Of a DNA stretch of 46,017 nt, positions 1-15,366 are shown piece by piece (the stretch's first letter is position 1; each line of letters starts with the position of its first letter). The notes under the pieces are model-generated. The model did no database searches and was not told where the DNA came from. It saw only the letters and a program-made list of their open reading frames with translations. Source of the DNA: Planctomycetota bacterium (GTDB lineage Bacteria > Planctomycetota > Phycisphaerae > UBA1845). The translations under genes were made by a program, and so were the position numbers. Where the stretch lies: NCBI GenBank assembly GCA_024280855.1, contig JAJRPG010000052.1, positions 1 through 46,017 on the forward strand. Reading direction: 5' to 3'.

Positions 1-425
1 TCGATGGCTAAACATTCACGCGTGTACTCGTCCTCAAGAGTCAAAAACTTCAACGTACGCCCATCGACCGTCTGGTCACTGACAAAGTCATAGCACCACA
101 CATGGTTGATGCGCTCCGCGCGATGTCGCACACATCCGTTGCCACTATGGCCCAAACACCTTTTTTTTACGCTGTTTCCTTGGCACCTTCAACCCTTCCT
201 TCCGCCACAGACGATACACACGCTTGCGATTCACGCGAAAACCATCGTCACGCAACAACGCCCAAATACGACGATAGCCATAACGCGGATGACGCCGAAC
301 CAAGCTCAGCATCCGCTGCACCAATGTCTTCTCGTCGTCGCGCTCACGAATCACATACCGCTGCGTCGATCCGCGTCCCGAAGCTTGCGAATTATCTGCT
401 CAGGACTGTGTCGCTTACGTTTCAT
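1..425 (-). pseudogene. IS3-family transposase remnant (orfA start fused to orfB, frameshifted)
   Basis: Read on the minus strand, position 425 starts an orfA-like N-terminus (MKRKRHSPEQIIRKLRDAD) typical of IS3-group elements. After 19 residues the sequence jumps to the middle of orfB (RSTQRYVIRERDDEK, then the helix-turn-helix segment with RRHPRYGYRRIWALL), so most of orfA and the orfB start are deleted. A run of eight T on the plus strand at 171-178 breaks the frame; in the other frame the integrase core continues (CVRHRAERINHVWCYDFVSD, with the first catalytic Asp in the YDFVSD context) and runs off the window edge at base 1. The orfA piece itself stops at 351-353. This is a dead fragment. 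It lies 160 bp from an orphan promoter that matches those of the neighbouring giant genes, so it may mark where a third paralog was lost. Confidence 0.85.
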
Positions 426-585
426 TTCCAAGTCCTCCCTGCCCGATCAACGGGCGGATAGGACTCTAATAACAACTGGATCAGGTTTTGGGTAGCAGGC
501 CAATATGATCCTGAATAATGCAATGGCCTAGGCTGCGGAACTTAAATTCCACAACTGAGATCCTGCTTCGAACGTTCAAGGATCG

Positions 586-614
586 ATTGTATCGTTTCGA
601 CTTCGCCAATCCAA
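586..614 (-). promoter_or_regulatory. orphan sigma70-like promoter, copy of those of the two giant genes
   Basis: On the minus strand the sequence reads TTGGAT, 17 bp, TACAAT (-35 at 609-614, -10 at 586-591). The spacer shares TGGCGA and TCGAAACGA with the promoters at 6617-6645 and 15367-15395. About 25-50 bp further downstream the leader also resembles the other two (AATTCC, CAAC, TGA in the same order). No giant gene follows; the IS3 remnant does. Confidence 0.6.
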
Positions 615-663
615 TGGAATTTGATTCTCTTAATCAATAATCCACATAGTTATTAGTATTTTC

Positions 664-3600
664 CTACTCTCCCGTGAATAAACGTTGATATGCCGCATAA
701 TCTAATACATCAACATCACCATCGCTGTCGCTGTCGAACACCTGCAGGCAAGTATTTAAACATGCTGCCTCCATTACACTTGGTACCTCACTAGGTCCAG
801 CCAGGCATTCAATTAGTGCCGGTAGATCGTCACTACTTACACGCCCATCCCCAGTAATATCCCCAGCCTCCAATATCTGGCACTCATCAAGGACATTGTC
901 ATTATTACAATCCCCGCTAGTTCCAGATGTAATATCGCACGCGTCAGGCACACCGTTGCCGTTGCAGTCGCCGTTTGTGTGCAGAAGGACTGACACTTTA
1001 CTAGGGCCTGAATTCGCGGCAATGATGTCGAGATTGCCATCGCGGTCCAGATCGCCGATGGCTACATGCCTCGCAGTGCTAAGCGCGCCGAAGTTTACTT
1101 GGGGGGCAAACGTGCCATCACCTATTCCCAGCAAGAGTGAAGCTTTCCCGTCGCCTCTGTTCGCCACAACTAAATCGAGGATGCCATCGCCGTTTAGATC
1201 GCCGATGGCCACTGAAACGGGGCCGAAGCTAGCATCGTAATTAACAGCGGCACTGAAGGTGCCGTCTCCTACTCCCAGCAGGATCGAGGCGCTCCCGTTG
1301 TTGAAATTCGCGAGGGCCAAGTCTAGGTTACCGTCGCCATTCAGATCACCTATGGCCACGGAATGGGGAGAACCTCCCGCATCATAGTTGACTGCTGTAG
1401 CAAAAGTTCCGTCACCTATGCCCAGTAAAATTGAGACGACCACGTTACCGCTGTTCGCTACGGCTATGTCGAGGATAGCGTCACCGTTCAGATCACCAAT
1501 TGCCACTGAACGGGGAGTAACTGCCGCACTATAATTAATGCGTGTGGTAAAGGTGCCGTCGCCATTGCCCAACATAATTGAGACTTTATTGTTTCGAGCA
1601 TTCGCTATAATCAGATCGAGTGCGCTGTCGCCGTTAAGATCACCGATAGCCACGAAAATGACTCCGCGGTCCGCATTGTAATTAACCCGTGCGGCAAAGG
1701 TGCCATCGCCATTGCCCAAAAGTACAGATACATTGCCGTCGCTGTTATTCGCTACGGCAAGGTCGAGATTGTCGTCGCCGTTAAGATCGCCGATAGCTAC
1801 TGACGCGGGAACATCGCCTACGCTATAGTTGACCGCCGTTGCGAAGGTTCCGTCGCCATTGCCAAGCAAGACTGAGACGTTGTCACTGCTGCCATTTGCA
1901 ACTGCCAGATCGAGTGTACCATCGCCGTCCAGATCGCCGATGGCCACGAAAAAGGGAGCGCTACCCGCAATATAGTTGACTGTTGAATCAAACAACTCCG
2001 CCGGCACGTCGCACTCGTCAGGCATGGCGTTGCTGTTGCAGTCTTGGCTAGTTTCGGTGGTAAGATCGCATTCGTCTGGTACGCTATTGGTATTGCAGTC
2101 TAGGCTTGTCACGTCTGCAATATCGCAGATGTCTTGTACCCCGTTGTTGTTGCAATCACTGTTCGGCTCGCATTCGTCAGGCATGGCGTTGTTGTTGCAA
2201 TCCAGGCTGGTTACGGCTTCAATGTCGCAAATGTCCTGCACGCCGTTGGTGTTGCAGTCGTTGTATGGATCGCATTCATCGGGTACGCCATTGATATTAC
2301 AGTCCGAACTGGTGCCATTTGAAATCTCACACATATCAGGCACGCCATGGCCGTTACAGTCTTGGCTGTGCCCGGTATTGATGTCGCATTCATCCGGTAC
2401 GCCGTTAGCATTGCAGTCCAGGCTCGTTCCAGAAGTCAAGTCACATTCGTCTGGCACGCTGTTGCCGTTGCAATCGTCATTGGAATGCAGAAGAACAGAA
2501 ACGTTGTCGCTTTTGAAATTCGCAACTACTAGGTCAAGAGCACCGTTACTGTCTAGGTCGCCGATGGCTAAAGAAAGGGGAGCGTCGCCTACGTCGTGGT
2601 TGACACGCGTGGGGAAGGTACCATCACCATTGCCCAGTAGGACAGTGACGTTGTTGCTAGTCGCCGCCATTGGCAACTGGGAAGAACCATCTCCGTGGGA
2701 CACAGCCAGATCAAGGTTTCCGTCGCCGTTAAAATCGCGGGTGGCGACGAATATTGGACCGTCACCCGTATCATAGTTGACCCGCGTGGGGAAGGTTCCG
2801 TCACCTTGGCCGAACAAAATTGAGATGTTGGCGCCTAAGAAATTCGCAATAGTGAGATCGAGGGCACCGTCGTTGTTTAGATCACCGATGGCAACAGATC
2901 TAGGATTGAAGCCAACACTGTAATCGACCGCATTAGCTAAAGTTCCGTCGCCGTCACCCATCCATACTGAAATACTGGAGATGCTGACATTTGCGACGAC
3001 CAAATCTAGGGCACCATCACCATTCAGATCACCTGCAGCTACTGATTTTGTAAAGGAAAAAACACCCTCACTGTAGTTGACTGCTACCGCGAATGTGCCG
3101 TCGCCGTTGCCCATCAGAAGCGATATATTGGCGTGCCCGCTGTTGCTGTTTACTACGGCTAAATCGAGGGCGCCGTCATTATTCATGTCTACAATGATCA
3201 CAGAGCTAGGGCTAAAGCCCGCGCCGTAATTGACCCGTGTAGCGAAAGTGCCATCACCGTTGCCCAGCAAAATAGAGATGTTGCCGCTGTTAGAGTTCGC
3301 CACGGCTAGATCTAGATTCCCGTCGCTGTCCAGATCACCGATGGCTACAGAAACGGGAGCGCCACCAACACCAATGTTGAGCTGCGTAGCAAAGGTACCG
3401 TCACCATTACCTAGAAAGACTGAGACATTATTTTCGCGCACATTCGCAACGACTATATCGAGAGCTCCATCGAAGTCCAAATCACCGACTGCCACGGAGA
3501 TGGGACTGTCGCCCACTATGTAGTTAGTCGCCATTCCAAACAGCTCCACTGGCACTTCGCACTCGTCGGGAACACTGTTGTCGTTGCAATCCAAATCACA

Positions 3601-6393
3601 CTCATCCGGCACACTATTTCTGTTGCAGTCCAGGCTGTCTTCGGCGGCAAGATCGCAAATGTCCTGAACGCCGTTGCTATTACAATCATTATTTGGCTCG
3701 CATTCGTCCGGCATGTTATTGTTGTTACAATCAAGGCTTGTCCCGGAGGCTAGATCGCAAATGTCCTGCACACTGTTGCTGTTACAGTCGTTGTTAGGCT
3801 CACACTCGTCCGGCAAGCTGTTGTTGTTGCAGTCCTGGCTGGTCCCATCGATTAAATCACAGTCATCCGGTACGCCATTGCCGTTGCAATCGCCTACAGT
3901 ATGAAGCAGAATTGAGACGTTATCGCTCCAGTGATTGGCTACGGCTAGGTCGAGAGCACCGTCACCGTTTAGATCGCCGATGGACACGGATAAAGGGCCG
4001 TCATCTGCCACGTAGTTTACTGCTGCCGCAAAAGTACCATTACCAATGCCCAATAGCACCGAGACGGTGTCGCTATGGAGATTTGTTACGACCAAGTCAG
4101 CGATGCCGTCGAAATTTAGATCACCAATAACTGCTGAGCGAGGCGCATCGCCCGCGTTGAAATTGATACTCCCGTTAAAATCGCCGTCGCCCTTGCCCAG
4201 CAGAACAGAAACATTGTCGCTGCCTAGGTTTGCCACAGCGAGGTCTAGAAACCCGTCGTCGTTCAGGTCACCTATCGCTACGGAAATAGGATCCAATTCT
4301 GTATCATAGTTGATTGAAGATGCGAATGTGCCATCACCGTTGCCCAGTAGAATTGAAATATTATCGTCATAACCGTTGCTCACCACAAGGTCTACGACGC
4401 TGTCGCCATCCAGGTCACCGATAGCCACAGAAGTGGGGCCGTCACCTGTGCCATAGTTGACTGGATTGGCGAAAGTGCCATCGTCATGACCAAGTAGGAC
4501 TGAGACATTATCTCCATCAACATTAGCAATAGCGAGGTCAAGAGCGCCATCACCATTTAGATCAGCGATGGCAATGGAACTGGGCCTGTCACCCGCACCA
4601 TAGTAGACCGCAGCGCCGAAAGTGCCATCGCCTTGGCCCAGCAGGACTGAGACGATAGTTCCATTAACATTAGTAATAGCCATGTCGAGGGCGCCGTCGT
4701 TGTTAAGGTCGCCCATGGCCAAGGAAGTGGGGCTGCTACCTGCACTGTAGTTGACAGCTGTGGCAAACGTACCGTCTCCATTTCCCAGCAAGATTGATAC
4801 ATTGTTGCCGCTATTATTGGTGATAGCGAGATCAAGGGCGCCGTCGTCGTCAAGATCGCCTAAGGCTACGGAATTGGCACCAACGCCAGCATCATAATTG
4901 ACCGCCACCTCAAGCATTTCCACTGGCACGTCGCAAACGTCGGGCACACCGTTATCGTTGCAGTCGAGGCTGCTCCCGTCGTTGATGTCACACAAGTCGG
5001 GAACACCATTGCCGTTGCAGTCTAAGTCACATTCATCGGGCACACCATTACTGTTACAGTCTACGCTAGTCCCGACAGCAACATCGCAATCGTCCGGTAC
5101 GTTATTTTCATTACAATCCAAGCTGGTCTCTGCGGCGAGGTCGCACTCGTCCGGCACGCCGTTGCCGTTACAGTCAGGGCTTGTACCGTGTAGTGCGATG
5201 GCATCGATTTCTTCCCATGTCATTTGATTGTGACGAGTATCAATATAGACTTTTACCCCCTTGACCAGAAATCCCGTTAATGGCCATGTAACCAGGAAGT
5301 CAACCGGCGAGCCTGGCAAACTCGTATCCTCCCCAAACCAAACGGGGTGTAGATCATCATTCGAATCCACTACATCGACCCGAAACACCATGCCGTTGCC
5401 CCAAACCTCACGGATGGTAACGCCTGAAGCAAACACCTGTTTCGGAAAACCGACGGTTATATTCTCCAGAGAACCGTTTTGAGGCAACGGGGCCCAGGCC
5501 GTCTCTATATCTGTATAGATGAAAGTGTCAGGCATTCCTAGTGCTTGCGATGCGGACCAATCGGGGTCATCGAATTGTGAACTGAAGTCGATCACATAGG
5601 ATGCCCACTGACTGATCGAAATAACATTGGCCAGATCACACTCATCGACCACACCATCGCCGTTGCAATCCGGATCGCATTCGTCTGGTACGCCGTTGCT
5701 GTTGCAATCCTGGCTAGTTTCAGCAGTGATGTCACACTCGTCGGGTACGCCGTTTCCGTTGCAGTCTATATCGCACTCGTCGGGAACAAAGTTTGAATTG
5801 CAATCGTTGGAAACCAGTTCATCACTATCAAGTACCCCGCTATCATTGCAATCAGCAATCAAGGTCCACTCGATACGGACTGTATCGTTACCGCCTACTG
5901 TAGAATCAATGTCTACCCCGAGTCCTGTCCATGTTATGGAATGCAAATCAGTCGTGGCAATGCCCGCGCCAATTACCGTAACGTTGTCGATAAGGTCACC
6001 ACCAAGCGGTGCGAGATCTTTGATAATGAATAAGTGTTCTGTATAATGACTTGCATTAAAAGCCGAAAAATCGGCATTTAAAAACCCTCCAAATGTATGA
6101 CCTGGCGGAGTTGGCATAACACCTGACACGACCTCAATGTTCCTACCGCCAGAGAGTATCTTATCCTCAAAAGTGCTGGTCCCACAAAATTCGTGGGGCT
6201 GTCCGTTATCGAAACTACCTGAGGTCCAAGTGCCCCAGAGAGTTTGTCTGTCGCCAGGCACCTCGGCAAAACCGTTGACTTCGATCAAAGTGCCGCATGC
6301 GATTTGGGCTTTCGCCCTGCCTATATCCAGACTGGTGGCGCAGAGGATCGCGAAAACAATTATAGATTTATTGCTGGTATCTCTCCAGAACAT
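664..6393 (-). CDS. giant secreted FG-GAP/VCBS propeller protein with DCN calcium repeats and dockerin-like C-terminus (paralog 1)
   Basis: About 1909 residues. The start is ATG at 6393, because GGAAGGAG lies 5-6 bases upstream; a longer reading frame would begin inside that ribosome site. A Sec signal ends near residue 30 (AKAQ|IACGT). Next come a ~160-residue N-terminal domain shared with the neighbour, five DCNxNGVPDECD repeats and a discoidin-like domain (about 258-399). Three blocks of seven FG-GAP/VCBS blades follow (about 488-832, 945-1304, 1462-1807), each blade near 49 residues with VAIGDLNGDGxLDLAVAN and VSVLLGNGDGTF. Linkers of 5, 7 and 9 DCN repeats join them. The last ~70 residues carry two EF-hand-like loops (DITGDGRVSSDD and DSDSDGDVDVLD), a dockerin-like end. 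By family knowledge the DCN and FG-GAP loops bind calcium and the protein is exported. The ligand is unknown; adhesion or carbohydrate binding is an inference. Confidence 0.88.
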   Translation of the reverse strand: MFWRDTSNKSIIVFAILCATSLDIGRAKAQIACGTLIEVNGFAEVPGDRQTLWGTWTSGSFDNGQPHEFCGTSTFEDKILSGGRNIEVVSGVMPTPPGHTFGGFLNADFSAFNASHYTEHLFIIKDLAPLGGDLIDNVTVIGAGIATTDLHSITWTGLGVDIDSTVGGNDTVRIEWTLIADCNDSGVLDSDELVSNDCNSNFVPDECDIDCNGNGVPDECDITAETSQDCNSNGVPDECDPDCNGDGVVDECDLANVISISQWASYVIDFSSQFDDPDWSASQALGMPDTFIYTDIETAWAPLPQNGSLENITVGFPKQVFASGVTIREVWGNGMVFRVDVVDSNDDLHPVWFGEDTSLPGSPVDFLVTWPLTGFLVKGVKVYIDTRHNQMTWEEIDAIALHGTSPDCNGNGVPDECDLAAETSLDCNENNVPDDCDVAVGTSVDCNSNGVPDECDLDCNGNGVPDLCDINDGSSLDCNDNGVPDVCDVPVEMLEVAVNYDAGVGANSVALGDLDDDGALDLAITNNSGNNVSILLGNGDGTFATAVNYSAGSSPTSLAMGDLNNDGALDMAITNVNGTIVSVLLGQGDGTFGAAVYYGAGDRPSSIAIADLNGDGALDLAIANVDGDNVSVLLGHDDGTFANPVNYGTGDGPTSVAIGDLDGDSVVDLVVSNGYDDNISILLGNGDGTFASSINYDTELDPISVAIGDLNDDGFLDLAVANLGSDNVSVLLGKGDGDFNGSINFNAGDAPRSAVIGDLNFDGIADLVVTNLHSDTVSVLLGIGNGTFAAAVNYVADDGPLSVSIGDLNGDGALDLAVANHWSDNVSILLHTVGDCNGNGVPDDCDLIDGTSQDCNNNSLPDECEPNNDCNSNSVQDICDLASGTSLDCNNNNMPDECEPNNDCNSNGVQDICDLAAEDSLDCNRNSVPDECDLDCNDNSVPDECEVPVELFGMATNYIVGDSPISVAVGDLDFDGALDIVVANVRENNVSVFLGNGDGTFATQLNIGVGGAPVSVAIGDLDSDGNLDLAVANSNSGNISILLGNGDGTFATRVNYGAGFSPSSVIIVDMNNDGALDLAVVNSNSGHANISLLMGNGDGTFAVAVNYSEGVFSFTKSVAAGDLNGDGALDLVVANVSISSISVWMGDGDGTLANAVDYSVGFNPRSVAIGDLNNDGALDLTIANFLGANISILFGQGDGTFPTRVNYDTGDGPIFVATRDFNGDGNLDLAVSHGDGSSQLPMAATSNNVTVLLGNGDGTFPTRVNHDVGDAPLSLAIGDLDSNGALDLVVANFKSDNVSVLLHSNDDCNGNSVPDECDLTSGTSLDCNANGVPDECDINTGHSQDCNGHGVPDMCEISNGTSSDCNINGVPDECDPYNDCNTNGVQDICDIEAVTSLDCNNNAMPDECEPNSDCNNNGVQDICDIADVTSLDCNTNSVPDECDLTTETSQDCNSNAMPDECDVPAELFDSTVNYIAGSAPFFVAIGDLDGDGTLDLAVANGSSDNVSVLLGNGDGTFATAVNYSVGDVPASVAIGDLNGDDNLDLAVANNSDGNVSVLLGNGDGTFAARVNYNADRGVIFVAIGDLNGDSALDLIIANARNNKVSIMLGNGDGTFTTRINYSAAVTPRSVAIGDLNGDAILDIAVANSGNVVVSILLGIGDGTFATAVNYDAGGSPHSVAIGDLNGDGNLDLALANFNNGSASILLGVGDGTFSAAVNYDASFGPVSVAIGDLNGDGILDLVVANRGDGKASLLLGIGDGTFAPQVNFGALSTARHVAIGDLDRDGNLDIIAANSGPSKVSVLLHTNGDCNGNGVPDACDITSGTSGDCNNDNVLDECQILEAGDITGDGRVSSDDLPALIECLAGPSEVPSVMEAACLNTCLQVFDSDSDGDVDVLDYAAYQRLFTGE
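972..2007 (-). repeat. seven FG-GAP blades, propeller 3 of paralog 1
   Basis: Seven units between VPAELFDSTVNY and SVLLHTNGDCNGN, followed by two DCN repeats and the dockerin-like end. Confidence 0.8.
2480..3558 (-). repeat. seven FG-GAP blades, propeller 2 of paralog 1
   Basis: Seven units between VPVELFGMATNY and SVLLHSNDDCNGN. Blades 4 and 6 carry small insertions, the latter with a GDGSSQLPMAATSNN loop. Confidence 0.8.
3897..4929 (-). repeat. seven FG-GAP blades, propeller 1 of paralog 1
   Basis: Seven consecutive ~147 bp units, entered by VPVEMLEVAVNY and left by SILLHTVGDCNGNG. Seven blades is the closed number for an integrin-alpha-like propeller. Confidence 0.8.
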
Positions 6394-6408
6394 GGATACT
6401 CCTTCCAA

Positions 6409-6616
6409 AATGTATACTCACCGTATTCGTAGTTAAGCTTGCAGTCGCCCTAAAGAACTACTGGCTCAATGTCGACTAGAAAGCCACTACGATTACGAAA
6501 TTATAGGATCCGTGGTGGCAAGTAGTGCCAGCATCTCTGAACTGGGTCAATATCTTGGGCTAAGGAAGTAAAATCCCCCAAACGTGAATAGTGCCCCACA
6601 TGATCGTCTAAGGACG
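6409..6616. other. intergenic leader of paralog 1
   Basis: No gene is visible. This would be the ~220-base untranslated leader between the promoter at 6617-6645 and the ATG at 6393. Confidence 0.5.
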
Positions 6617-6645
6617 ATTATATCGTTTCGACACGGATTTTTCAA
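6617..6645 (-). promoter_or_regulatory. sigma70-like promoter of paralog 1
   Basis: TTGAAA (6640-6645), 17 bp, TATAAT (6617-6622) on the minus strand: one base from consensus at -35 and on consensus at -10. It lies about 225 bp before the gene start and matches two other copies in the window. Confidence 0.7.
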
Positions 6646-6719
6646 TGGTCTTTAAAAATAGTTGCCTACAATCGGTCATGTAAATCTTTTATTTTCAATT
6701 TAATACGGAGTCCAGAGAT

Positions 6720-9700
6720 CTATTCGCCGGTGAACGATCGTTGATATGCAGCATAATCTAATAAATCAACGTCACCATCGTTGTCGCTGTCGAACACAAT
6801 AAGGCAAGTACTTACACATGCGGCCTCCATTATCGTCGGTGCCGTGCTTGGTCCTTCGGCGCATTCAATCAGTGCCAGCAGATCTGCATTGCTAACACGA
6901 CCATCGCTCGAAAAATCATTACCCTCCCAGCCCTGGCACTCGTCGGGGATACTGTTGCTGTTGCAGTCCAGACTGGACCAAGCAGCGATGTCGCATTCGT
7001 CGGGTATGCCGTTGCCGTTGCAGTCGCCCACTGTATGCAACATGATCGAGATGTTGTCCCCGTACAGATCCCCCACGGCCATGTCGAGATTGCCGTCGCG
7101 GTCCAAATCTTCGATGAGCAATGACGAGGGACTGAATCCCAAATCGTAGTGCGTCGCATCTGCGAAAGTGCCATCTCCGTTGCCTAACAGGAATGAAACT
7201 GTGCGTCGGCTTGTAGTTGTCACGGCTAGATCGATTACACCGTCGCCATTCAAATCGCGGATGGCAACCCTAAAAGTACCGCCGCTCACAACGTAGTTAA
7301 CAGCCATACCAAAAGTACCGTCACCATTGCCCTCAAGTACCACGATGCCGCTCGTATTGCTAACAGCCATGACCAGGTCCAAGACATTGTCGCCATTTGT
7401 ATCTCCAATAGTCACGGTAGAAGCAGTGCCAGTTGAGTAAATCTCGACTGTGGGGAAGGTGCCGTCCCCTTTGCCTAACAGAACAGACACGTACGTGCCG
7501 CCGAGGACTGTAGCGGCCACGTCGAGTACCCCGTCGCCGTTCAGATCGCCGAGAGCTACAGATTTAGATCGGCTGCTAAAACGGTAGCTAACCTTAGATG
7601 AAAATGTGCCGTCGCCAATGCCCATTAGGACAGAGACGAAGTCATCATGAAAATTCGCCACAACCACATCCAAGACACTATCGCCATTCAGATCGCCGAT
7701 AGCTAAGGAATAGGGATTACTGCCTGCGCTGTAATGAACAGCTGCGTTGAAGCTGCCGTCGCCATTTCCCAACAGAATCGATACAGTGTAATCACTGAAA
7801 TTCGCAACAATCAAGTCGAAGTCACCATCGCCGTTTAGATCGCCAATGACCACGTCACGCGGTCCATCGCCAACACTATAGTTTACCGTTTGGGTAAATG
7901 TGCCGTCGCCTTGGCCCAGCAACACTGAGATGCTGTCGTCATCGATGTTCACAACAGCAAAATCGAGGAAGCCATCGGCATTTAGGTCGCCGATGGACAT
8001 TGAAAAAGGGCCGTCGCCCGCACCATAGCTAACCGCCACATCAAACAATTCCGCTGGTACGTCGCAGTCGTCGGGCACGCCATTGCTATTGCAGTCCAGA
8101 TCACACTCATCGGGAACTCGATTGCTATTGCAGTCTAGGCTCGTCCCGGATGTGATGTCGCAGTCGTCGGGTATATTGTTATTATTGCAGTCCAAATCAC
8201 ACTCGTCTGGCGTTTTGTTCTTGTTGCAGTCCTGACTCGTTCCAACAGCTATGTCACAGATGTCCTGAACACTGTTGCTATTGCAATCGTTATTCTGCTC
8301 ACACTCGTCAGGTATGCCGTTTGCATTGCAGTCTAGGCTAGTCCCAACGATTAGGTCGCACTCATCTGGCACGCCATTGCTATTGCAGTCAACGCTAAAT
8401 TCAGAGGCGATGTCGCAATCGTCCAATATGTTATTGCCATTGCAATCCAAGCTAGTACCAGTAGCGAAGTCACAATCGTCCGGAACGCCGTTGCCGTTGC
8501 AGTCACCTTCAGTGTGTAGTAGGACTGAGATGCTTGAAGATCCGCTACTCGCGCGATGCACTACGATTAAGTCGAACGCGCCGTTGCCGTTAAGATCACC
8601 GATAGCCACAGAAGAAGATCCGTAGCCCGTATTGTAATTGACAGAGGTATTGAATGTGCCGTCACTATTACCGAACAAGACTGAGACATTCGCATCGTTG
8701 TATTTCGCCACTGCCAAATCGAGGGCACCGTCGCCGTTCAGATCGCCGATAGCTACGGACCGAGGACGATAACCTGCTGCATAATTGACTGCTGCGGCAA
8801 AAGTGCCATCGCCCTTGCCTAGCGAGACTGAGACGGTATCGCCGTTTCCAAACGCCACGGCCAAGTCGAGATCGCCATCATCGTTTAGATCGTCGATGGC
8901 CATGGAAATGGGGCTGTAGCCAACAACGTGGTTAACCGCGGTTTTGAAAGTTCCATAGCCAGTGCCCAGCAGGACAGATGCATTATCACTACTGGAGTTA
9001 GCCACAACGAGGTCGAGATTGCAATCGCCATCCAGGTCGCCGATGACGACAGAATAGGGTCTATTGCCAACACTGTATGTCACTGCTGGAGCAAAGGTGC
9101 CATCGCCCATACCATGCAAGACGGAGACATTGTCGTCATCTAGGTTCGTGACAGCAAAGTCAAGTACGCCATCACCATTAAGATCACCGGAGGCTATAGA
9201 AAAAGGGTAATTGCCCACACTATAGTAAACTGCAGTAGCGAAAGTACCGTCACCGTTACCCAACAGAATTGCAACGTCGTCGTATGAGGGACCGGGGAAG
9301 GCTAAGTCGAGGGCTCCGTCGCCATTTACATCGCCGATGGCCACGGAATAGGTACTGCGGAGCACAGCGTATTCAACTGGGACGTTGAATGTTCCGTCGC
9401 CGTTTCCTATAAAGACTTGAATTGAGAAACCACTAGTAACAACGACTAGGTCTTCTGAGCCATCGCCATTTAGATCAGCGATGGCGGCAGCAGAGGCAGA
9501 GGAGTATGTTGCGAAATTAACCGCAGCATCAAACAACTCTACCGGAACGTCGCATTCATCAGGTACGCCATTTGTGTTACAGTCAATGCTGGTACCACTG
9601 TCGATGTCACATTCGTCGGGCAGTTCATTGCTGTTGCAATCCACGCTAGTCCCGGTGGTGAGGTCACAGTCGTCGGGAATGCTGTTGCCATTACAATCTG

Positions 9701-10334
9701 GATCGCATTCATCAGGCACGCCGTTACCATCGCAGTCTATACTGGTGGCGACGTTGATGTCGCAGTCGTCGGGTATGCTATTGCCATTGCAATCTGGATC
9801 GCACTCATCCGGTACGGCATTAGTGTTACAATCCGTGCTGGTGCCGGCCGCAAGATCACAAATGTCTTGCACACCATTGACGTTGCAGTCATCGCTTGGC
9901 TCGCACTCGTCCGGTATTCCGTTTGTATTACAATCTAGGCTTGTTCCGGTGGTAATGTCACACTCATCGGGCACACCGTTAGCGTTGCAGTCTGCGCTGT
10001 TTTCGGCATTTACGTCGCAAGTATCTGGAACGCTGTTGTTGTTACAATCTAGGCTAGTCCCAGTGGCAATGTCACATTCGTCTGGTACACTATTGCCGTT
10101 GCAGTCATCGTCTGTATGAAGAAAGACAGATACGTTGTCGTCGTTGCGAATTGCCACGACCAAGTCAATAGTGCCATCGCCATCCAAGTCGCTAATAGCC
10201 AAGGAAAAGGGTTCGTTACCCACACTATGGTTGACTGCTGTGGCGAAGGTTCCGTCGCCATTGCCCAGCAGGATTGAGATATTGAAGTCGTAACGATTCG
10301 TTACGACCAAGTCAAGATCACCATCACCGTTCAA
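6720..10334 (-). CDS. C-terminal part of giant FG-GAP/DCN protein (paralog 2, after frameshift)
   Basis: About 1205 codons, beginning inside the sixth blade of a propeller at MNGDGDLDLVVTN. It has no signal peptide or ribosome site and is the displaced continuation of the reading frame at 10373-15148. It holds the last two blades of propeller 3, eleven DCN repeats, propeller 4 (seven blades), nine DCN repeats, propeller 5 (seven blades), two DCN repeats and a dockerin-like end with EF-hand-like loops (SSDGRVSNADL and DSDNDGDVDLLD). The final ~60 residues are closely similar to the end of paralog 1 (LDYAAYQRSFTGE against LDYAAYQRLFTGE), which confirms the stop. If the frameshift is real this part is not translated as such; if it is a sequencing error it belongs to one ~2809-residue protein spanning 6720-15148. 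Confidence 0.8.
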   Translation of the reverse strand: MNGDGDLDLVVTNRYDFNISILLGNGDGTFATAVNHSVGNEPFSLAISDLDGDGTIDLVVAIRNDDNVSVFLHTDDDCNGNSVPDECDIATGTSLDCNNNSVPDTCDVNAENSADCNANGVPDECDITTGTSLDCNTNGIPDECEPSDDCNVNGVQDICDLAAGTSTDCNTNAVPDECDPDCNGNSIPDDCDINVATSIDCDGNGVPDECDPDCNGNSIPDDCDLTTGTSVDCNSNELPDECDIDSGTSIDCNTNGVPDECDVPVELFDAAVNFATYSSASAAAIADLNGDGSEDLVVVTSGFSIQVFIGNGDGTFNVPVEYAVLRSTYSVAIGDVNGDGALDLAFPGPSYDDVAILLGNGDGTFATAVYYSVGNYPFSIASGDLNGDGVLDFAVTNLDDDNVSVLHGMGDGTFAPAVTYSVGNRPYSVVIGDLDGDCNLDLVVANSSSDNASVLLGTGYGTFKTAVNHVVGYSPISMAIDDLNDDGDLDLAVAFGNGDTVSVSLGKGDGTFAAAVNYAAGYRPRSVAIGDLNGDGALDLAVAKYNDANVSVLFGNSDGTFNTSVNYNTGYGSSSVAIGDLNGNGAFDLIVVHRASSGSSSISVLLHTEGDCNGNGVPDDCDFATGTSLDCNGNNILDDCDIASEFSVDCNSNGVPDECDLIVGTSLDCNANGIPDECEQNNDCNSNSVQDICDIAVGTSQDCNKNKTPDECDLDCNNNNIPDDCDITSGTSLDCNSNRVPDECDLDCNSNGVPDDCDVPAELFDVAVSYGAGDGPFSMSIGDLNADGFLDFAVVNIDDDSISVLLGQGDGTFTQTVNYSVGDGPRDVVIGDLNGDGDFDLIVANFSDYTVSILLGNGDGSFNAAVHYSAGSNPYSLAIGDLNGDSVLDVVVANFHDDFVSVLMGIGDGTFSSKVSYRFSSRSKSVALGDLNGDGVLDVAATVLGGTYVSVLLGKGDGTFPTVEIYSTGTASTVTIGDTNGDNVLDLVMAVSNTSGIVVLEGNGDGTFGMAVNYVVSGGTFRVAIRDLNGDGVIDLAVTTTSRRTVSFLLGNGDGTFADATHYDLGFSPSSLLIEDLDRDGNLDMAVGDLYGDNISIMLHTVGDCNGNGIPDECDIAAWSSLDCNSNSIPDECQGWEGNDFSSDGRVSNADLLALIECAEGPSTAPTIMEAACVSTCLIVFDSDNDGDVDLLDYAAYQRSFTGE
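7027..8062 (-). repeat. seven FG-GAP blades, propeller 5 of paralog 2
   Basis: Seven units between VPAELFDVAVSY and SIMLHTVGDCNGN. Confidence 0.8.
8508..9550 (-). repeat. seven FG-GAP blades, propeller 4 of paralog 2
   Basis: Seven units between VPVELFDAAVNF and SVLLHTEGDCNGN. Confidence 0.8.
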
Positions 10335-11138
10335 ATCGCCGATGTCTAAAGCAAGGGGAGTGTCGCCTACATTTAATTAACCGCATTAGCAAAGGTGCCT
10401 TCACTATTTCCAAGTAAAACTGAGACATTAGAGTCGTCAGCATTCGCCACAGCCATGTCTTGAATGCCATCGCCGTTCAGGTCGTCGATAGACACGGATC
10501 TGGCACCATCGCCTGCACTATATTTGATTGCAATGGCGAAGGTGCCGTCGCCATTTCCATATAGGACTGAGATGTTTTCATCTCTGCCACTTGCGACGGC
10601 CAAGTCGAGGATACTATCGCCATTCAGATCTCTTATAGCAATTGAATTAGGAGATAAACCCGTATTGAAAAATACTGCCTGTTCGAACGTACCATCGCCG
10701 ATGCCCAACAGAACTGAGATGCCTCCGTTGTTACGGTGTGTCACCGACAAGTCGAGGGCGCCGTCGCTGTTTAGATCGCCGATGGCCAGATAATCAGGCA
10801 GGTTACCCGCTACGTAGTTGACCGCGCTAGATAAGGTGCCGTCGCCGTTACCCAGCAATACCGAAATGCCGTCCAGGTCTGATACAGCTAGATCGAGCAC
10901 ACCGTCACCGTTAAGATCGCCGGTAGCTGTTGATAAGGAATAACTTACTGTTGCGTAGTTGACAGCGGCGGCGAACGTGCCGTCACCGTTGCCTGGCAGG
11001 ACTGATACAGTTTTGCTGTTGTCGTTCACCACAACTAGGTCGCGAGCGCCATCACCAGTAAGGTCGGCGATAACAACGAATCTGGGAAAAAAACCTGTAC
11101 TGTAGTTGGTCGCGGAATCAAACAGCTCCGCCGGAACG
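10108..11138 (-). repeat. seven FG-GAP blades, propeller 3 of paralog 2 (frameshifted)
   Basis: Five blades lie in the upstream frame and two in the downstream frame. Repairing the base at 10371-10380 gives seven, as in all other blocks. Confidence 0.8.
10371..10380 (-). other. one-base frameshift splitting paralog 2
   Basis: Reading on the minus strand, the blade should continue as Asn-Tyr-Asn-Val-Gly-Asp, but AAT TAA AT GTA GGC is present where AAT TAT AAT GTA GGC is expected. Restoring one base joins the two frames without gap and completes the seven-blade count of propeller 3. Confidence 0.85.
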
Positions 11139-14100
11139 TCACATTCGTCAGGCATTCCGTTGATGTTGCAGTCTAGGCTTACGCCGACATTGATGTCGCA
11201 TTCGTCCGGCACGTCATTACTGTTGCAATCGAGACTCGTCGCAATTGCAAGATCACAGATGTCCTGAACGCCGTTACTATTACAGTCGTCACTCGGCTCG
11301 CACTCGTCCGGCTCGTCATTATTGTTGCAATCTAGGCTAATCCCGCTCGCGAGATCACAGATGTCCTGAATGCTGTTGCTATTGCAATCATTGATTGGCT
11401 CGCACTCATCCGGAATATCGTTACTGTTGCAGTCCAGACTAAACACGGCAGTAAGATCGCAATCATCTGGTTTACCGTTACCATTGCAGTCTAGGCTCGT
11501 TCCCACGGCAATATCGCAAGCGTCCGGTATACCATTTCCGGTGCAGTCTGGATCACACTCGTCCAGCACTCCGTTACTGTTACAGTCGCCAACAGTATGG
11601 AGCAGGACAGAGACATTATTACTGTTAACATTTGCTATAACCAGATCAAGTGCGCTGTCGCCATTCAGATCGCCAATGGCCACAGAAAAGGGGCCGTCAT
11701 CTGCACCAAGGATGAATGCTGGCGCGAAGGTGCCATCACCAATGCCGAGCAGAACAGAAACATTGTCGTCGTTTAAGTTTGCCACGGCTAGGTCGAGGTT
11801 GCCATCGCCGTTGAGATCGCCAATGGCTGCGGATTCTGGACCATCGCCCACATTATAGTTAACTCTCGCCTTAAAGCTGCCATCACCATTACCTAGCATC
11901 ACAGAAACATTATTGTCAATGAAATGCGCAATAGCTAGATCGAGATAGCCATCGCTATTCAGATCGCCCATAACCAGTGAAATGGGAGCGTCACCTACAA
12001 TGTAGTTGATCGGCGCGGCGAAGGTGCCGTCACCGTTACCCATTAACACCGAAATATTATCATCGACGTTATTCACCAATCCCAAGTCTAGAACGCCGTC
12101 GCCATTTAGATCGCCAATGGCTATGGACCCGGGGCCGTCACCAACATCGTAATTAACGCGCCGAGCAAAAGTACCATTGCCGGTACCCAGCAGAACTGCA
12201 ATGTTGTCGCTACTGTTGTTCGCAACAATGTCAAGGGTGCCATCACCATTCAGATCGCCAATGGCAACATATATGGGAACGCCATTCACTTCGTAGTTGA
12301 CCTCATCCGCGAAAGTTCCATCTCCATTGCCTAGCAGAACAGAGACTCTTGCGATGCTGATACTTGCCACTGCCAGATCAAGCACGCCGTCGCCATTCAG
12401 ATCGCCAATGGCAACGGAAAAATGACGAACACCATCAGCGTAGTTGACTGCTGTTGCGACAGTTCCGTCGCCATTTCCAAGAAGGACTGATATGTTACTG
12501 CCGAAATTATTTGCTACGACTACGTCGAGGTTGCCGTCACTATTTAGATCGCCGGTGGCCACTGACCTGGGATTGAAAACTGTCGCATAGTTGACTGCCA
12601 CATCAAACAAGTTCAATGGCAATTCACATTCATCTGGCACGCCATTCTCATTGCAATCGGTGCTGGTATCGTTGGCAATATCACACTTGTCAGACACGCC
12701 ATTGCTGTTGCAGTCTTGGCTCGATTCGCATTCATCTGGCATGCTGTTGTTGTTGCAATCAAGGCTGGTCCCATTAGCAATATCGCATATGTCCGACACG
12801 AGGTTCCCGTTACAGTCGTCAATCGGCTCGCACTCATCAGGTATACTGTTATTATTGCAGTCTAGACTGGTCCCGGAAGCAATATCAATAAGGTCCGACA
12901 CACTATTATTGTTACAGTCCGGCTCGCACTCGTCTGGCATGCCGTTGTTGTTAATGTCCGCACTCGTCTCGGTGGCAATGTCACAATCATCCGGCACGTC
13001 GTTAGCATTACAGTCCGAACTCGTCCCGCTAGCAATATCGCAGATGTCCTGCACACTGTTACCATTGCAGTCGTTGCTCGATTCGCAATCGTCAGGCAGA
13101 TCGTTATTATTGCAGTCTTGGCTTGTTCCAACGACGATGTCGCATGAGTCAGGCACACTGTTACCGTTACAGTCCTGATCACACTCATCTGGCACACCGT
13201 TGCCGTTACAATCTATGCTTGTCGCAGTGATTATATCGCAATCGTCAGGCACGCTGTTCCCATTGCAATCTAGACTATTCCCGACATTTATATCACACTC
13301 ATCAGGCACGTCGTTGCCGTTGCAATCTAAACTATTACCGACATCAATATCGCAATCGTCAGGCACGACGTTACCGTTACAGTCGTTGTTCGGCTCGCAC
13401 TCGTCCGGTACATCGTTACCGTTACAGTCCGCACTAGCTCCTTCTGTGATGTCGCACTCGTCTAATATACCGTTGTTGTTGCAGTCGCCGTCAGAGCGCA
13501 GAAGAACTGAGAAGTTATTGCTGTTGACATTTGCCACGACGAGGTCGAGGGCGATGTCGCCATTCAAATCACCGATAGCTAGGGATATAGGACTATCGCC
13601 CACGTCAAAGTTAGTCATGGCGGCAAATGAACCGTCGCCATTGCCGGGTAGGACTGAGATGTTGTCACCCGCACTGTTAACTACGACTAAGTCAGGTATG
13701 CCGTCTTCTGTCAAATCGTCGATGGCCAGTGCTCCGGGACTGCTACCCACGCCGTAATTAACCGGCAAGGGGAATGTGCCGTCGCCGTTGCCTAGTAGGA
13801 CTGATATAACGTTACCGGAGTTGTTAGCAGCGGCTAAGTCGAGGACGCTGTCATTGTTCATATCACCGATGGCAACGAAAACGGGGCCACTCCCCACAAA
13901 ATAGCTCACCGCTGGAGAAAAGGTGCCATCGCCGTTACCCAACAGGACAAAAACGCTACCGAAAAAATTGTTGTCCACTGCCAGGTCGAGCGCACCATCA
14001 TTGTTCAAATCGCCCATAGCCACGGACCGAGGCCCCAGCCCAGCGCCGTACTTAACAGATATAGAGAAGGTGCCATCGCCGTTGCCAAGCAGGACTGACA

Positions 14101-15148
14101 CGTTGACATCATCACTGTTCGCGACGGCCAGGTCGAGCGCATTGTCGCCGTCCAGATCACCGATCACCACTGAACTAGGCCCCAGCCCTGTACGGTAACT
14201 TACCTCTGCGGAGAAGTTACCATCGCCGTTGCCCAATAAAACCGAGATATTTTGGCTACTGTAATTCGCCACAGCGAGATCGAGTGCGCCGTCGCCATTC
14301 AAATCACCAATGGCCACTGAAACGGGCGCATTATTAGTATCGAATTTAACCGCTGTACTGAAAGTACCGACGCCGTTTCCCAGCATGACTGAAACGTTGT
14401 TGTCGGCACCATTCGCTACAACCATGTCGAGGAATCCATCACCGTTCAGATCGCCTAGCGCCACGGATTTGGGATCAACCGCATCATAATTTACAGCTAT
14501 GTCAAATAGGCCCGTGGGTTCTTCACAATCGTCAGGTACGCCGTTGGCATTGCAATCGTTATTGACTAGTTCGTCGTTATCAGGCACGCCGTTGGCATTG
14601 CAGTCGCTGCTCTGAGTCCACTCAATCCGCACCAAGCTATTACCGCCCACTGCCGAATCAATGTCAGCTCCCAATCCATTCCATGTGATGGATTGGTAAT
14701 CGGTCGTGGCAAAGCCAGCGCCAAATACTGAGACTGTGTCGATAAGGTCACCTCCGGGTGGATTGAGACCTACAATCGTAAAAGTATGGTTCGTGTAGAA
14801 GCTGGCATCAAACGCCGAGAAGTCCATTTCAAAGAACCCCGCGAACGTATGACCCTGTGGAGTCGGTAAGACTCCGGACGCAACCTCGATTTTCTTACCG
14901 CCAAATATTACTTGGTCCTCGTAGGTACTCGTTCCGCAAAATGAATGCAGCATTCCGTTGTCAAAGCCAGCCCTGGAACCCCAGATCGTTTGCCTGACGC
15001 CCGGCTCCTCGGCAGAACCGATGATGTCGACCAAAGTGCCGCAAGCCACTTGTGCGTTTGCCCTGTCTGGTCCTATCCCAGAAACAGACAAAATCACGAC
15101 AACGGTGATAAGCGTACTTAGCTTGCGGTAGCGGTCTTGGCTGAACAC
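10373..15148 (-). CDS. N-terminal part of giant secreted FG-GAP/DCN protein (paralog 2)
   Basis: The likely start is GTG at 15148: GAAGGGGAA lies just upstream at the same spacing as in paralog 1, and the protein then begins with the matching signal peptide (ending ANAQ|VACGTL). An earlier frame start at 15259 is probably too long. After a ~160-residue domain homologous to paralog 1 come two DCN repeats, propeller 1 (seven blades), about seventeen DCN repeats, propeller 2 (seven blades), nine DCN repeats, then the first five blades of propeller 3 before a stop created by the frameshift at 10371-10380. Unlike paralog 1 it has no discoidin-like domain. It is exported by inference; calcium binding is inferred from the acidic DxNxDG and DCN loops. 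About 1591 residues as read, 2809 if the frame is repaired. Confidence 0.85.
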   Translation of the reverse strand: MFSQDRYRKLSTLITVVVILSVSGIGPDRANAQVACGTLVDIIGSAEEPGVRQTIWGSRAGFDNGMLHSFCGTSTYEDQVIFGGKKIEVASGVLPTPQGHTFAGFFEMDFSAFDASFYTNHTFTIVGLNPPGGDLIDTVSVFGAGFATTDYQSITWNGLGADIDSAVGGNSLVRIEWTQSSDCNANGVPDNDELVNNDCNANGVPDDCEEPTGLFDIAVNYDAVDPKSVALGDLNGDGFLDMVVANGADNNVSVMLGNGVGTFSTAVKFDTNNAPVSVAIGDLNGDGALDLAVANYSSQNISVLLGNGDGNFSAEVSYRTGLGPSSVVIGDLDGDNALDLAVANSDDVNVSVLLGNGDGTFSISVKYGAGLGPRSVAMGDLNNDGALDLAVDNNFFGSVFVLLGNGDGTFSPAVSYFVGSGPVFVAIGDMNNDSVLDLAAANNSGNVISVLLGNGDGTFPLPVNYGVGSSPGALAIDDLTEDGIPDLVVVNSAGDNISVLPGNGDGSFAAMTNFDVGDSPISLAIGDLNGDIALDLVVANVNSNNFSVLLRSDGDCNNNGILDECDITEGASADCNGNDVPDECEPNNDCNGNVVPDDCDIDVGNSLDCNGNDVPDECDINVGNSLDCNGNSVPDDCDIITATSIDCNGNGVPDECDQDCNGNSVPDSCDIVVGTSQDCNNNDLPDDCESSNDCNGNSVQDICDIASGTSSDCNANDVPDDCDIATETSADINNNGMPDECEPDCNNNSVSDLIDIASGTSLDCNNNSIPDECEPIDDCNGNLVSDICDIANGTSLDCNNNSMPDECESSQDCNSNGVSDKCDIANDTSTDCNENGVPDECELPLNLFDVAVNYATVFNPRSVATGDLNSDGNLDVVVANNFGSNISVLLGNGDGTVATAVNYADGVRHFSVAIGDLNGDGVLDLAVASISIARVSVLLGNGDGTFADEVNYEVNGVPIYVAIGDLNGDGTLDIVANNSSDNIAVLLGTGNGTFARRVNYDVGDGPGSIAIGDLNGDGVLDLGLVNNVDDNISVLMGNGDGTFAAPINYIVGDAPISLVMGDLNSDGYLDLAIAHFIDNNVSVMLGNGDGSFKARVNYNVGDGPESAAIGDLNGDGNLDLAVANLNDDNVSVLLGIGDGTFAPAFILGADDGPFSVAIGDLNGDSALDLVIANVNSNNVSVLLHTVGDCNSNGVLDECDPDCTGNGIPDACDIAVGTSLDCNGNGKPDDCDLTAVFSLDCNSNDIPDECEPINDCNSNSIQDICDLASGISLDCNNNDEPDECEPSDDCNSNGVQDICDLAIATSLDCNSNDVPDECDINVGVSLDCNINGMPDECDVPAELFDSATNYSTGFFPRFVVIADLTGDGARDLVVVNDNSKTVSVLPGNGDGTFAAAVNYATVSYSLSTATGDLNGDGVLDLAVSDLDGISVLLGNGDGTLSSAVNYVAGNLPDYLAIGDLNSDGALDLSVTHRNNGGISVLLGIGDGTFEQAVFFNTGLSPNSIAIRDLNGDSILDLAVASGRDENISVLYGNGDGTFAIAIKYSAGDGARSVSIDDLNGDGIQDMAVANADDSNVSVLLGNSEGTFANAVN
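11590..12622 (-). repeat. seven FG-GAP blades, propeller 2 of paralog 2
   Basis: Seven units between LPLNLFDVAVNY and SVLLHTVGDCNSN. Confidence 0.8.
12623..13489 (-). repeat. longest DCN calcium-repeat linker (about 17 repeats)
   Basis: Run of DCNxNxVPDECD units with occasional GTSLD spacers, TSP3-like. One unit has lost its first Cys (DINNNGMPDEC). Confidence 0.75.
13490..14520 (-). repeat. seven FG-GAP blades, propeller 1 of paralog 2
   Basis: Seven units between EPTGLFDIAVNY and SVLLRSDGDCNNN. Confidence 0.8.
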
Positions 15149-15366
15149 AGATTCCCCTTCAATAATTTCAACTGCTGCGTCTGTATCTAATCCCACTGTC
15201 GCCCAAAGAGCTTCGGGCGTCTCGTCGGCGAAAACTCCACCGCGATTTTGAGAGTACATGCTTCAGACCGGCACGCGAGGCCGCCCCAATCCTGACTGGC
15301 GCAATAGCAGGGCGGAGAAAATGAAATTCCTCAACATGAACCCTGCCCCGATCGATCTTTGGAGCA

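Follow-up and report, generated by a model that had tools for sequence, protein, structure and literature searches.

Seven-bladed FG-GAP propellers and a candidate disulfide ladder in two giant planctomycete proteins

Here, we analyze a stretch of 46,017 nucleotides from a Planctomycetota bacterium (Phycisphaerae; UBA1845; assembly GCA_024280855.1, contig JAJRPG010000052.1, positions 1 to 46,017 of the forward strand; hereafter, the window), which is contig 76 of a genome assembly of 4.56 Mb in 112 contigs. Two minus-strand genes in the window, paralog A (664..6408) and paralog B (6720..15259), encode giant proteins in which blocks of exactly seven FG-GAP blades alternate with linkers made of a short two-cysteine motif. 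The account that we favor, and that we regard as fairly probable as a whole, is that these are Ca2+-dependent multivalent binding proteins in which closed seven-bladed rings are stapled into a disulfide ladder running from Cys2 of one linker motif, motif i, to Cys11 of the next, motif i+1 (cysteines numbered by their position in the motif).

In the proposed mechanism, both proteins would be secreted and each block would form a closed ring, in which an entry strand (ELFD..VNY) takes the place of the integrin N-terminal strand that completes blade seven. Consecutive linker motifs would be bonded Cys2(i) to Cys11(i+1), giving a ladder, and each ring would be inserted in the spacer between two motifs, such that the rung over the insertion staples the adjacent ends of the ring. 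The rings would bind glycans or surface proteins, a dockerin-like end would anchor the rope, and ring closure would hold the blade number at seven while leaving block number and linker length free.

Blade number and ring fold

A blade hidden Markov model (HMM) built from the window's own 56 units divides the open reading frame 664-6408 of paralog A into three blocks of seven blades, all on the minus strand as are those of B: A.1 (3904..4905), A.2 (2485..3540) and A.3 (979..1992). In paralog B, which is split by a frame change, the open reading frame 10373-15259 holds seven, seven and five blades and a second frame, which is open between 10376 and 6720, holds two, seven and seven. B thus has five blocks, i.e., B.1 (13499..14506), B.2 (11600..12607), B.3, B.4 (8517..9533) and B.5 (7038..8045), where B.3 is tallied as five blades ahead of the frame break (10394..11122) plus two in the second frame (10116..10376), as two pieces from frames that were neither joined nor repaired. 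These numbers agree with the preliminary description of this DNA, which had counted three and five blocks of seven and 56 blades in total. All 56 units score 50 to 85 bits with the blade HMM, cores within blocks lie 47 to 59 residues apart, most often 49, and the Pfam model FG-GAP_3 matches the three frames with 452.6, 367.2 and 313.4 bits (cut-off 26.9). An Asp-rich core of the Ca2+ type, D-x-[DNT]-x-[DN], is present in 56 of 56 blades, from which Ca2+ binding is predicted. The blocks are free of cysteine, save for one residue in B.4. The preliminary description had also given each block a VPxELFD entry and a SVLLHTxGDCNGNG exit; these stand as a type of signature but not as fixed strings, because entries vary (VPVEMLE in A.1, EPTGLFD in B.1 and LPLNLFD in B.2) and so do exits (SILLHT, SVLLHS, SVLLRS, SVFLHT and SIMLHT among them).

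Several observations support the idea that a block folds as a closed seven-bladed propeller of the integrin type. An AlphaFold model was made of A.3 with its linkers and the C-terminal end of paralog A, from 41 aligned sequences and with no disulfides or Ca2+ supplied. In this model, the block has 28 strands in seven groups of four, and the predicted local distance difference test score (pLDDT) of the ring is 87 to 98 (ten-residue means, residues 161-500). Structural alignment with VIA-align matches model residues 162-510 to the propeller of integrin alpha-IIb over 323 residues (Z 35.2, root-mean-square deviation 2.4 Å, ∼18% identity; PDB 9e8a and 3nid), and this match spans the entire seven-bladed propeller. 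The next matches are other integrins and, within 1.5 Z units, also other compact propellers, with leptospiral Lp49 and the streptogramin and virginiamycin B lyases at Z 33.7 to 33.8. Because these non-integrin propellers are nearly as close, the match speaks for ring size and fold more than for kinship. At the level of sequence, A.3 has no match to solved structures at 0.001, and a part-blade, part-linker stretch returned weak rows among PDB sequences, mostly integrin alpha-V (best E 0.05). The blocks open with the presumed outer strand of blade seven (ELFD..VNY) and stop after its third strand (SVLLHT), and model residue 162 onward is aligned to integrin residue 1 onward, such that the entry strand may complete blade seven. 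In integrins, blade seven is completed by the N-terminal strand, as set out in PMC3192720. A.3, whose model closes at seven, is the single block of eight that was modelled, which limits the support; for the remaining seven, closure is predicted from the count. A relative with 14 blades from Terriglobia (L105) is predicted with 56 strands at a mean pLDDT of 89; the structural matches listed for it comprise 272 to 348 residues, one ring's size, and its VIA-align rows extend over 12..355 or over 9..711.

The number seven also dominates in relatives. In a multi-phylum set, comprising the best 80 of at least 294 named loci, 93 of 105 uncut arrays with at least four blades number a multiple of seven (73 of 7, 19 of 14 and 1 of 21). 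Under a common quality filter (mean of at least 20 bits; arrays of fewer than four blades removed), multiples of seven make up 93/105 arrays in the multi-phylum loci, 35/42 in loci of the window's family and 10/13 among linker-plus-blade matches in the class. After deduplication, this amounts to 137 of 159 distinct uncut arrays (92 of 7, 44 of 14 and 1 of 21). The same filter removes weak arrays of the window's own genome, three of 7 (L083, L085 and L086) and partial ones of 4-5 (L082, L084 and L088). The loci were retrieved with seven-blade queries, which favors similar arrays; this bias alone cannot yield 14 over 13 or 15. The counts in relatives and the A.3 model support the earlier proposal of closed, seven-bladed, integrin-like rings.

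Some observations weigh against a strict rule. The other 22 of the 159 arrays have 5 (four arrays), 6 (three), 8 (two), 10 (three), 11 (one), 12 (four), 13 (two), 16 (two) or 17 blades (one), with none of 15. Exceptions that look complete have 10 (L062), 12 (L065), 13 (L112) and 5 blades (L144), and L057 has a three-blade array flanked by linkers of the window's kind. The arrays of L106 and L055 appear truncated, and the two arrays of six in L210 are separated by a gap of 101 residues that could accommodate two degenerate blades. Moreover, arrays from related genomes are not independent. Thus, the HMM count in homologs reveals a rule that is strong but not absolute.

Relatives also differ in how their rings are arranged. 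A Verrucomicrobia protein (L133 4727-9598) has 21 consecutive blades, i.e., three times seven. An Ignavibacteria locus (L153 2081-12784) has five separate seven-blade blocks, and a Magnetococcales locus (L091 1749-7667) has four, the fourth near a contig end; neither has strings of the cysteine motif. Because these two loci carry five and four rings with at most one cysteine motif, multiple rings are not unique to the window.

The linker repeat and the candidate ladder

The linkers consist of a 12-residue motif with the consensus D-C-N-x-N-G-x-P-D-E-C-D, which in the window recurs at spacings of 13, 15 or 19 residues; nearly every motif has two cysteines, and its pattern resembles that of an EF-hand loop. 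All linkers lie on the minus strand. Between the rings of paralog A are linkers of 7 motifs and 14 cysteines (3541..3903) and of 9 motifs and 18 cysteines (1993..2484). In paralog B, the four linkers have 17 motifs and 32 cysteines (12608..13498), 9 and 18 (11123..11599), 11 and 22 (9534..10115) and 9 and 18 (8046..8516). Ring-to-ring motif counts are all odd in the genus (7, 9, 17, 9, 11 and 9, and 9 in the ortholog of genome G002), which is not so in G074. Ahead of A.1, the motifs of paralog A (4906..5856) are broken by a cysteine-free domain of ∼150 residues (borders by eye) with no Pfam or NCBIfam match. This domain is also found in G002, and a kept Cys2 precedes it and a kept Cys11 follows it.

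For one 297-residue linker, the sole Pfam row looks like chance (E 0.43), there is no NCBIfam match, and no TSP_3 or related model was returned to E 10 from either database by HMMER, whose filters discard weak matches. Pure linker has no match among PDB sequences at E 10, and strings of the linker motif returned no paper in PubMed Central that was on topic by its title, where absence is no proof of absence in print. At E 1e-20, 94 of 114 genomes from the order contain the repeat, as do 35 of 294 genomes sampled across the phylum. It occurs mostly without blades: among 30 loci with the linker, each a stretch of a few kb, 3 (the window's included) have arrays of at least four blades, and within the class, 12 of 298 genomes have linker joined to blade.

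Three lines of evidence suggest that Cys2(i) and Cys11(i+1) are joined by a disulfide. First, these two cysteines tend to be lost together. In the 17-motif linker of paralog B, one motif lacks its first cysteine and the next motif its second. In an initial count of 578 motifs, Cys2(i) and Cys11(i+1) were co-lost seven times, with one lone loss among neighbors. With a relaxed caller, they were co-lost 8 times and lost alone 3 and 1 times in a first set of 47 proteins with 734 motifs. In a second set, 634 motifs in 38 proteins from additional regions of the order, the same caller gave 23 co-losses and 2 and 2 lone losses. A third set, 634 motifs in 27 proteins from the phylum's other families, gave 21 co-losses, with Cys2(i) lost alone 20 times and Cys11(i+1) never. 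Co-loss within a motif was not seen in any of the three sets.

Second, a ladder of this type would leave only two cysteines unpaired, one at each end, namely Cys11 in the first motif and Cys2 in the last one. Among 57 first motifs of closed frames, 32 are without Cys11 and 2 without Cys2; among 61 last motifs, Cys2 is absent from 36 and Cys11 from none. In the third set, Cys11 is missing from 10 of 19 first motifs and Cys2 from 20 of 22 last motifs, and in other motifs, the cysteine is missing in 2 to 8 percent. Spurious motif matches are ruled out as the source of these terminal losses, which are one-sided, while a one-cysteine motif occurs in 1 of 1560 shuffled flanks. After the last motif, the parity of tail cysteines is as predicted in 45 of 61 frames (p 8e-4) and, in the third set, in 16 of 22.

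Third, the cysteines around inserted rings and other domains suggest that these sit inside the ladder. Both flanking cysteines are kept at 99 of 109 inserts of at least 40 residues and at 23 of 23 inserts with at least five blades; propeller insertions differ from protein ends in flanking cysteine loss (Fisher p 1.5e-7 and 5e-7). The Cys2 preceding an insert is lost at 6 of 21 inserts with an odd number of cysteines and at 3 of 88 with an even number. In the third set, neither flanking cysteine is lost at 28 of 32 inserts with an even number and at 2 of 6 with an odd one. In the simplest reading, the ladder would continue across the inserted domain and staple its base.

A number of points weigh against this proposal or limit its support. 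The third set contains 20 lone Cys2 losses and 11 neighboring motif pairs in which both motifs lack Cys2, probably indicating a second, one-cysteine type of motif there. Cys11(i) and Cys2(i+1) were co-lost four times in the second set, the remaining pairings tested in the first two sets showing no joint loss. The caller favors motifs that keep a cysteine, and loss within a motif is therefore under-counted. The idea of a ladder arose from the first set; the 31 co-losses of the first two sets fall in 15 proteins, one of which has 10 events, and 29 of the 31 occur at 13-residue spacing. Nor are the 23 propeller insertions independent, as they are spread over 15 frames and seven of them are in the window. 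Head cysteine parity, upstream of the first motif, carries no significant signal (33/57, p 0.42). Finally, the AlphaFold model supports no linker fold, as linkers have a pLDDT below 50 over most of their length. As a separate observation, one protein (L246) lacks both Cys2(i) and Cys11(i+1) at joints of 12-residue spacing eight times; these joints are perhaps hinges without a rung.

The strongest competitor, which we consider rather unlikely, is that closed rings follow one another as beads on a string, with linker cysteines pairing only within the linker or the motif. The free number of linker motifs (7, 9, 17, 9, 11 and 9), as in a spacer, and linkers without defined structure in the model would suit this arrangement. 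It does not account for the flanking cysteines kept at 23 of 23 propeller insertions when the corresponding cysteines are lost in more than half of closed ends, or for the lack of within-motif co-loss in all three sets, even allowing for its under-counting. The preliminary description had likewise pictured beads on calcium-stiffened linkers. EF-loop-like motifs are indeed present, but most of the linker length has a low pLDDT and the cysteines point to rings that are clipped into a ladder instead, and calcium stiffening would be an interpretation of the motif pattern. With the ladder as the preferred arrangement, we see an even chance that these proteins represent a new extracellular architecture, i.e., an EF-loop-like rope with a ladder of overlapping disulfides, in which whole domains are inserted in spacers and hang as pendants, each stapled covalently at its base, with the ladder continuing uninterrupted beyond it.

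Constancy of the blade number and integrity of the genes

The blades of the eight blocks have diverged while their number has stayed the same. Mean blade identity is 0.509 within a block (168 pairs), 0.521 at the same position of different blocks and 0.504 between other blocks and other positions (1176 pairs). When all positions are permuted, 0 of 500 permutations reach the observed same-position identity; with blades 2-6 only, 456 of 500 do. Blades 2-6 are thus without positional signal and blades 1 and 7 carry it. The identity of A.1 to the ortholog block of G002 is 0.658 with blades in register and 0.603 with blades out of register, and blade 7 alone stands out at 0.83 (A.1.7 versus G.1.7). 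Exact direct repeats in the DNA of 664-15259 reach at most 24 nucleotides. This rules out recent tandem duplication or gene conversion of blades and makes assembly collapse an unlikely cause of the constant count; the blade identities also give no sign of whole-block copying that preserved inner positions. Because DNA repeats beyond 24 nucleotides are absent and inner positional identity is lost, the number seven is not left over from recent copying. The number of blocks varies (three in A, five in B and two in G002), and the number of blades per block is constant at seven. Divergence at a constant count alongside variable block number supports the earlier suggestion of selection for closed rings, and we infer that ring closure fixes the count at seven while block number and linker length drift.

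It is possible that seven was inherited from an old seven-blade block. In its full form, the proposal that one ancestral block was copied whole and that the count is under no continuing selection appears improbable to us. It would fit the positional identity retained by blades 1 and 7 across blocks (83% for A.1.7 versus G.1.7) and the prevalence of 7 and 14 in the groups sampled. Yet, blades have diverged to ∼51% identity and inner positions are mixed, and still none of the eight blocks has gained or lost a blade. Among the distinct uncut arrays, moreover, 92 of 7, 44 of 14 and 1 of 21 stand against 3 of 6, 2 of 8, 2 of 13 and none of 15.

The integrity of the genes bears on a further possibility, to which we assign an equally low probability, namely that they are decaying. 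At 10373-10376 in paralog B, the first frame hits a stop, and upstream the second frame stays open as far as 10376; this break is either a real mutation or an assembly error. The frame of B extends to an ATG at 15259, and position 15148, taken as the limit in the preliminary description, is a GTG inside that frame. The G002 ortholog (L042, G002:C55) has an in-frame TAA at 9521-9523, which in its second block separates blade 3 from blade 4, and in G001, the third member of the genus, there is no match at 1e-40. That both B and the G002 copy are interrupted weighs against the account that we favor. Nevertheless, only one interruption is seen in each, blades and cysteine motifs are otherwise intact over thousands of bases, an assembly error is possible, and A reads through.

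Open or polymerizing FG-GAP arrays without closure at seven, for which the 22 off-rule arrays among 159 could be cited, are very improbable given that the A.3 model and the integrin match cover a whole ring and that the count pattern favors seven.

Predicted function, known systems and implications

The 1914-residue product of paralog A comprises an N-terminal domain, cysteine-motif repeats, the extra cysteine-free domain, three propellers and a dockerin-like end. The N-terminal domain (5857..6306, minus strand) is without a Pfam or NCBIfam match; it is 66% identical to its copy in B (14615-15052) and 65% to that in G002. Both proteins start with a hydrophobic, signal-like stretch, as judged by eye, and are probably secreted. 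If the analogy with VCBS-type lectins and integrins (PMC8023676 and PMC9218822) holds, glycans or surface proteins would be the most likely ligands of their rings. The dockerin type I-like domain of A lies at 688..867 (minus strand). The C-terminal 104 residues alone match Dockerin_1 with 30.8 bits, the whole protein with 18.4 (cut-off 22.9). Going by family knowledge, this end may anchor the rope. In the genome, 22 matches to dockerin and 2 to cohesin are found; the absence of the window's own end from those 22 is a point against the assignment.

Seven-bladed FG-GAP rings are of a known kind. In 2011, bacterial proteins with 7 or 14 FG-GAP repeats were read as single or tandem seven-bladed propellers (Chouhan et al., PMC3192720). 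Those proteins and ours share seven full-length FG-GAP/Ca2+ repeats and may share a blade seven closed by an N-terminal strand, but theirs have one or two closely spaced rings whereas those of the window have three and five with long two-cysteine repeats in between. What looks new is the seating of ring copies in cysteine-motif linkers. The VCBS/FG-GAP superfamily, as described in PMC8023676 and PMC9218822, likewise has DxDxDG-type blades amplified from single blades. For highly repetitive VCBS propellers, the latter gives diverse blade numbers with a median of 6, in contrast to seven per block and ∼51% identical blades in the window. Integrin alpha-IIb has the same whole seven-bladed fold; the window's proteins are bacterial and have several rings per chain, and the Pfam and NCBIfam scans, the only scans made, list no calf/thigh, membrane helix or other integrin domains. 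Thrombospondin type 3 repeats are tandem Ca2+-binding repeats with disulfides, as the linkers are predicted to be; one disulfide of ∼20 residues (C856-C876) is mentioned in PMC6526912. By contrast, the linker of the window has two cysteines per 12-residue motif, rings between motifs, and no Pfam or PDB sequence match.

Farther along the window, 16454-46017 is a mixed mobile or defense-like stretch with genes for a ResIII helicase, two DNA methylases, a DDE transposase, a phage terminase gpA, a TIR/SEFIR protein and a kinase with TPR.

The blocks provide a clean natural case in which the fold sets the copy number of a repeat and leaves its sequence, the number of blocks and the length of linkers free to drift. 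Should the ladder prove right, many giant proteins of this planctomycete lineage would share one testable scaffold that has no match in Pfam, NCBIfam or PDB sequences, and cysteine parity could aid the prediction of the points at which domains clip in. A rope of disulfides and calcium from which binding rings hang could, moreover, be put to use as a template for multivalent display.

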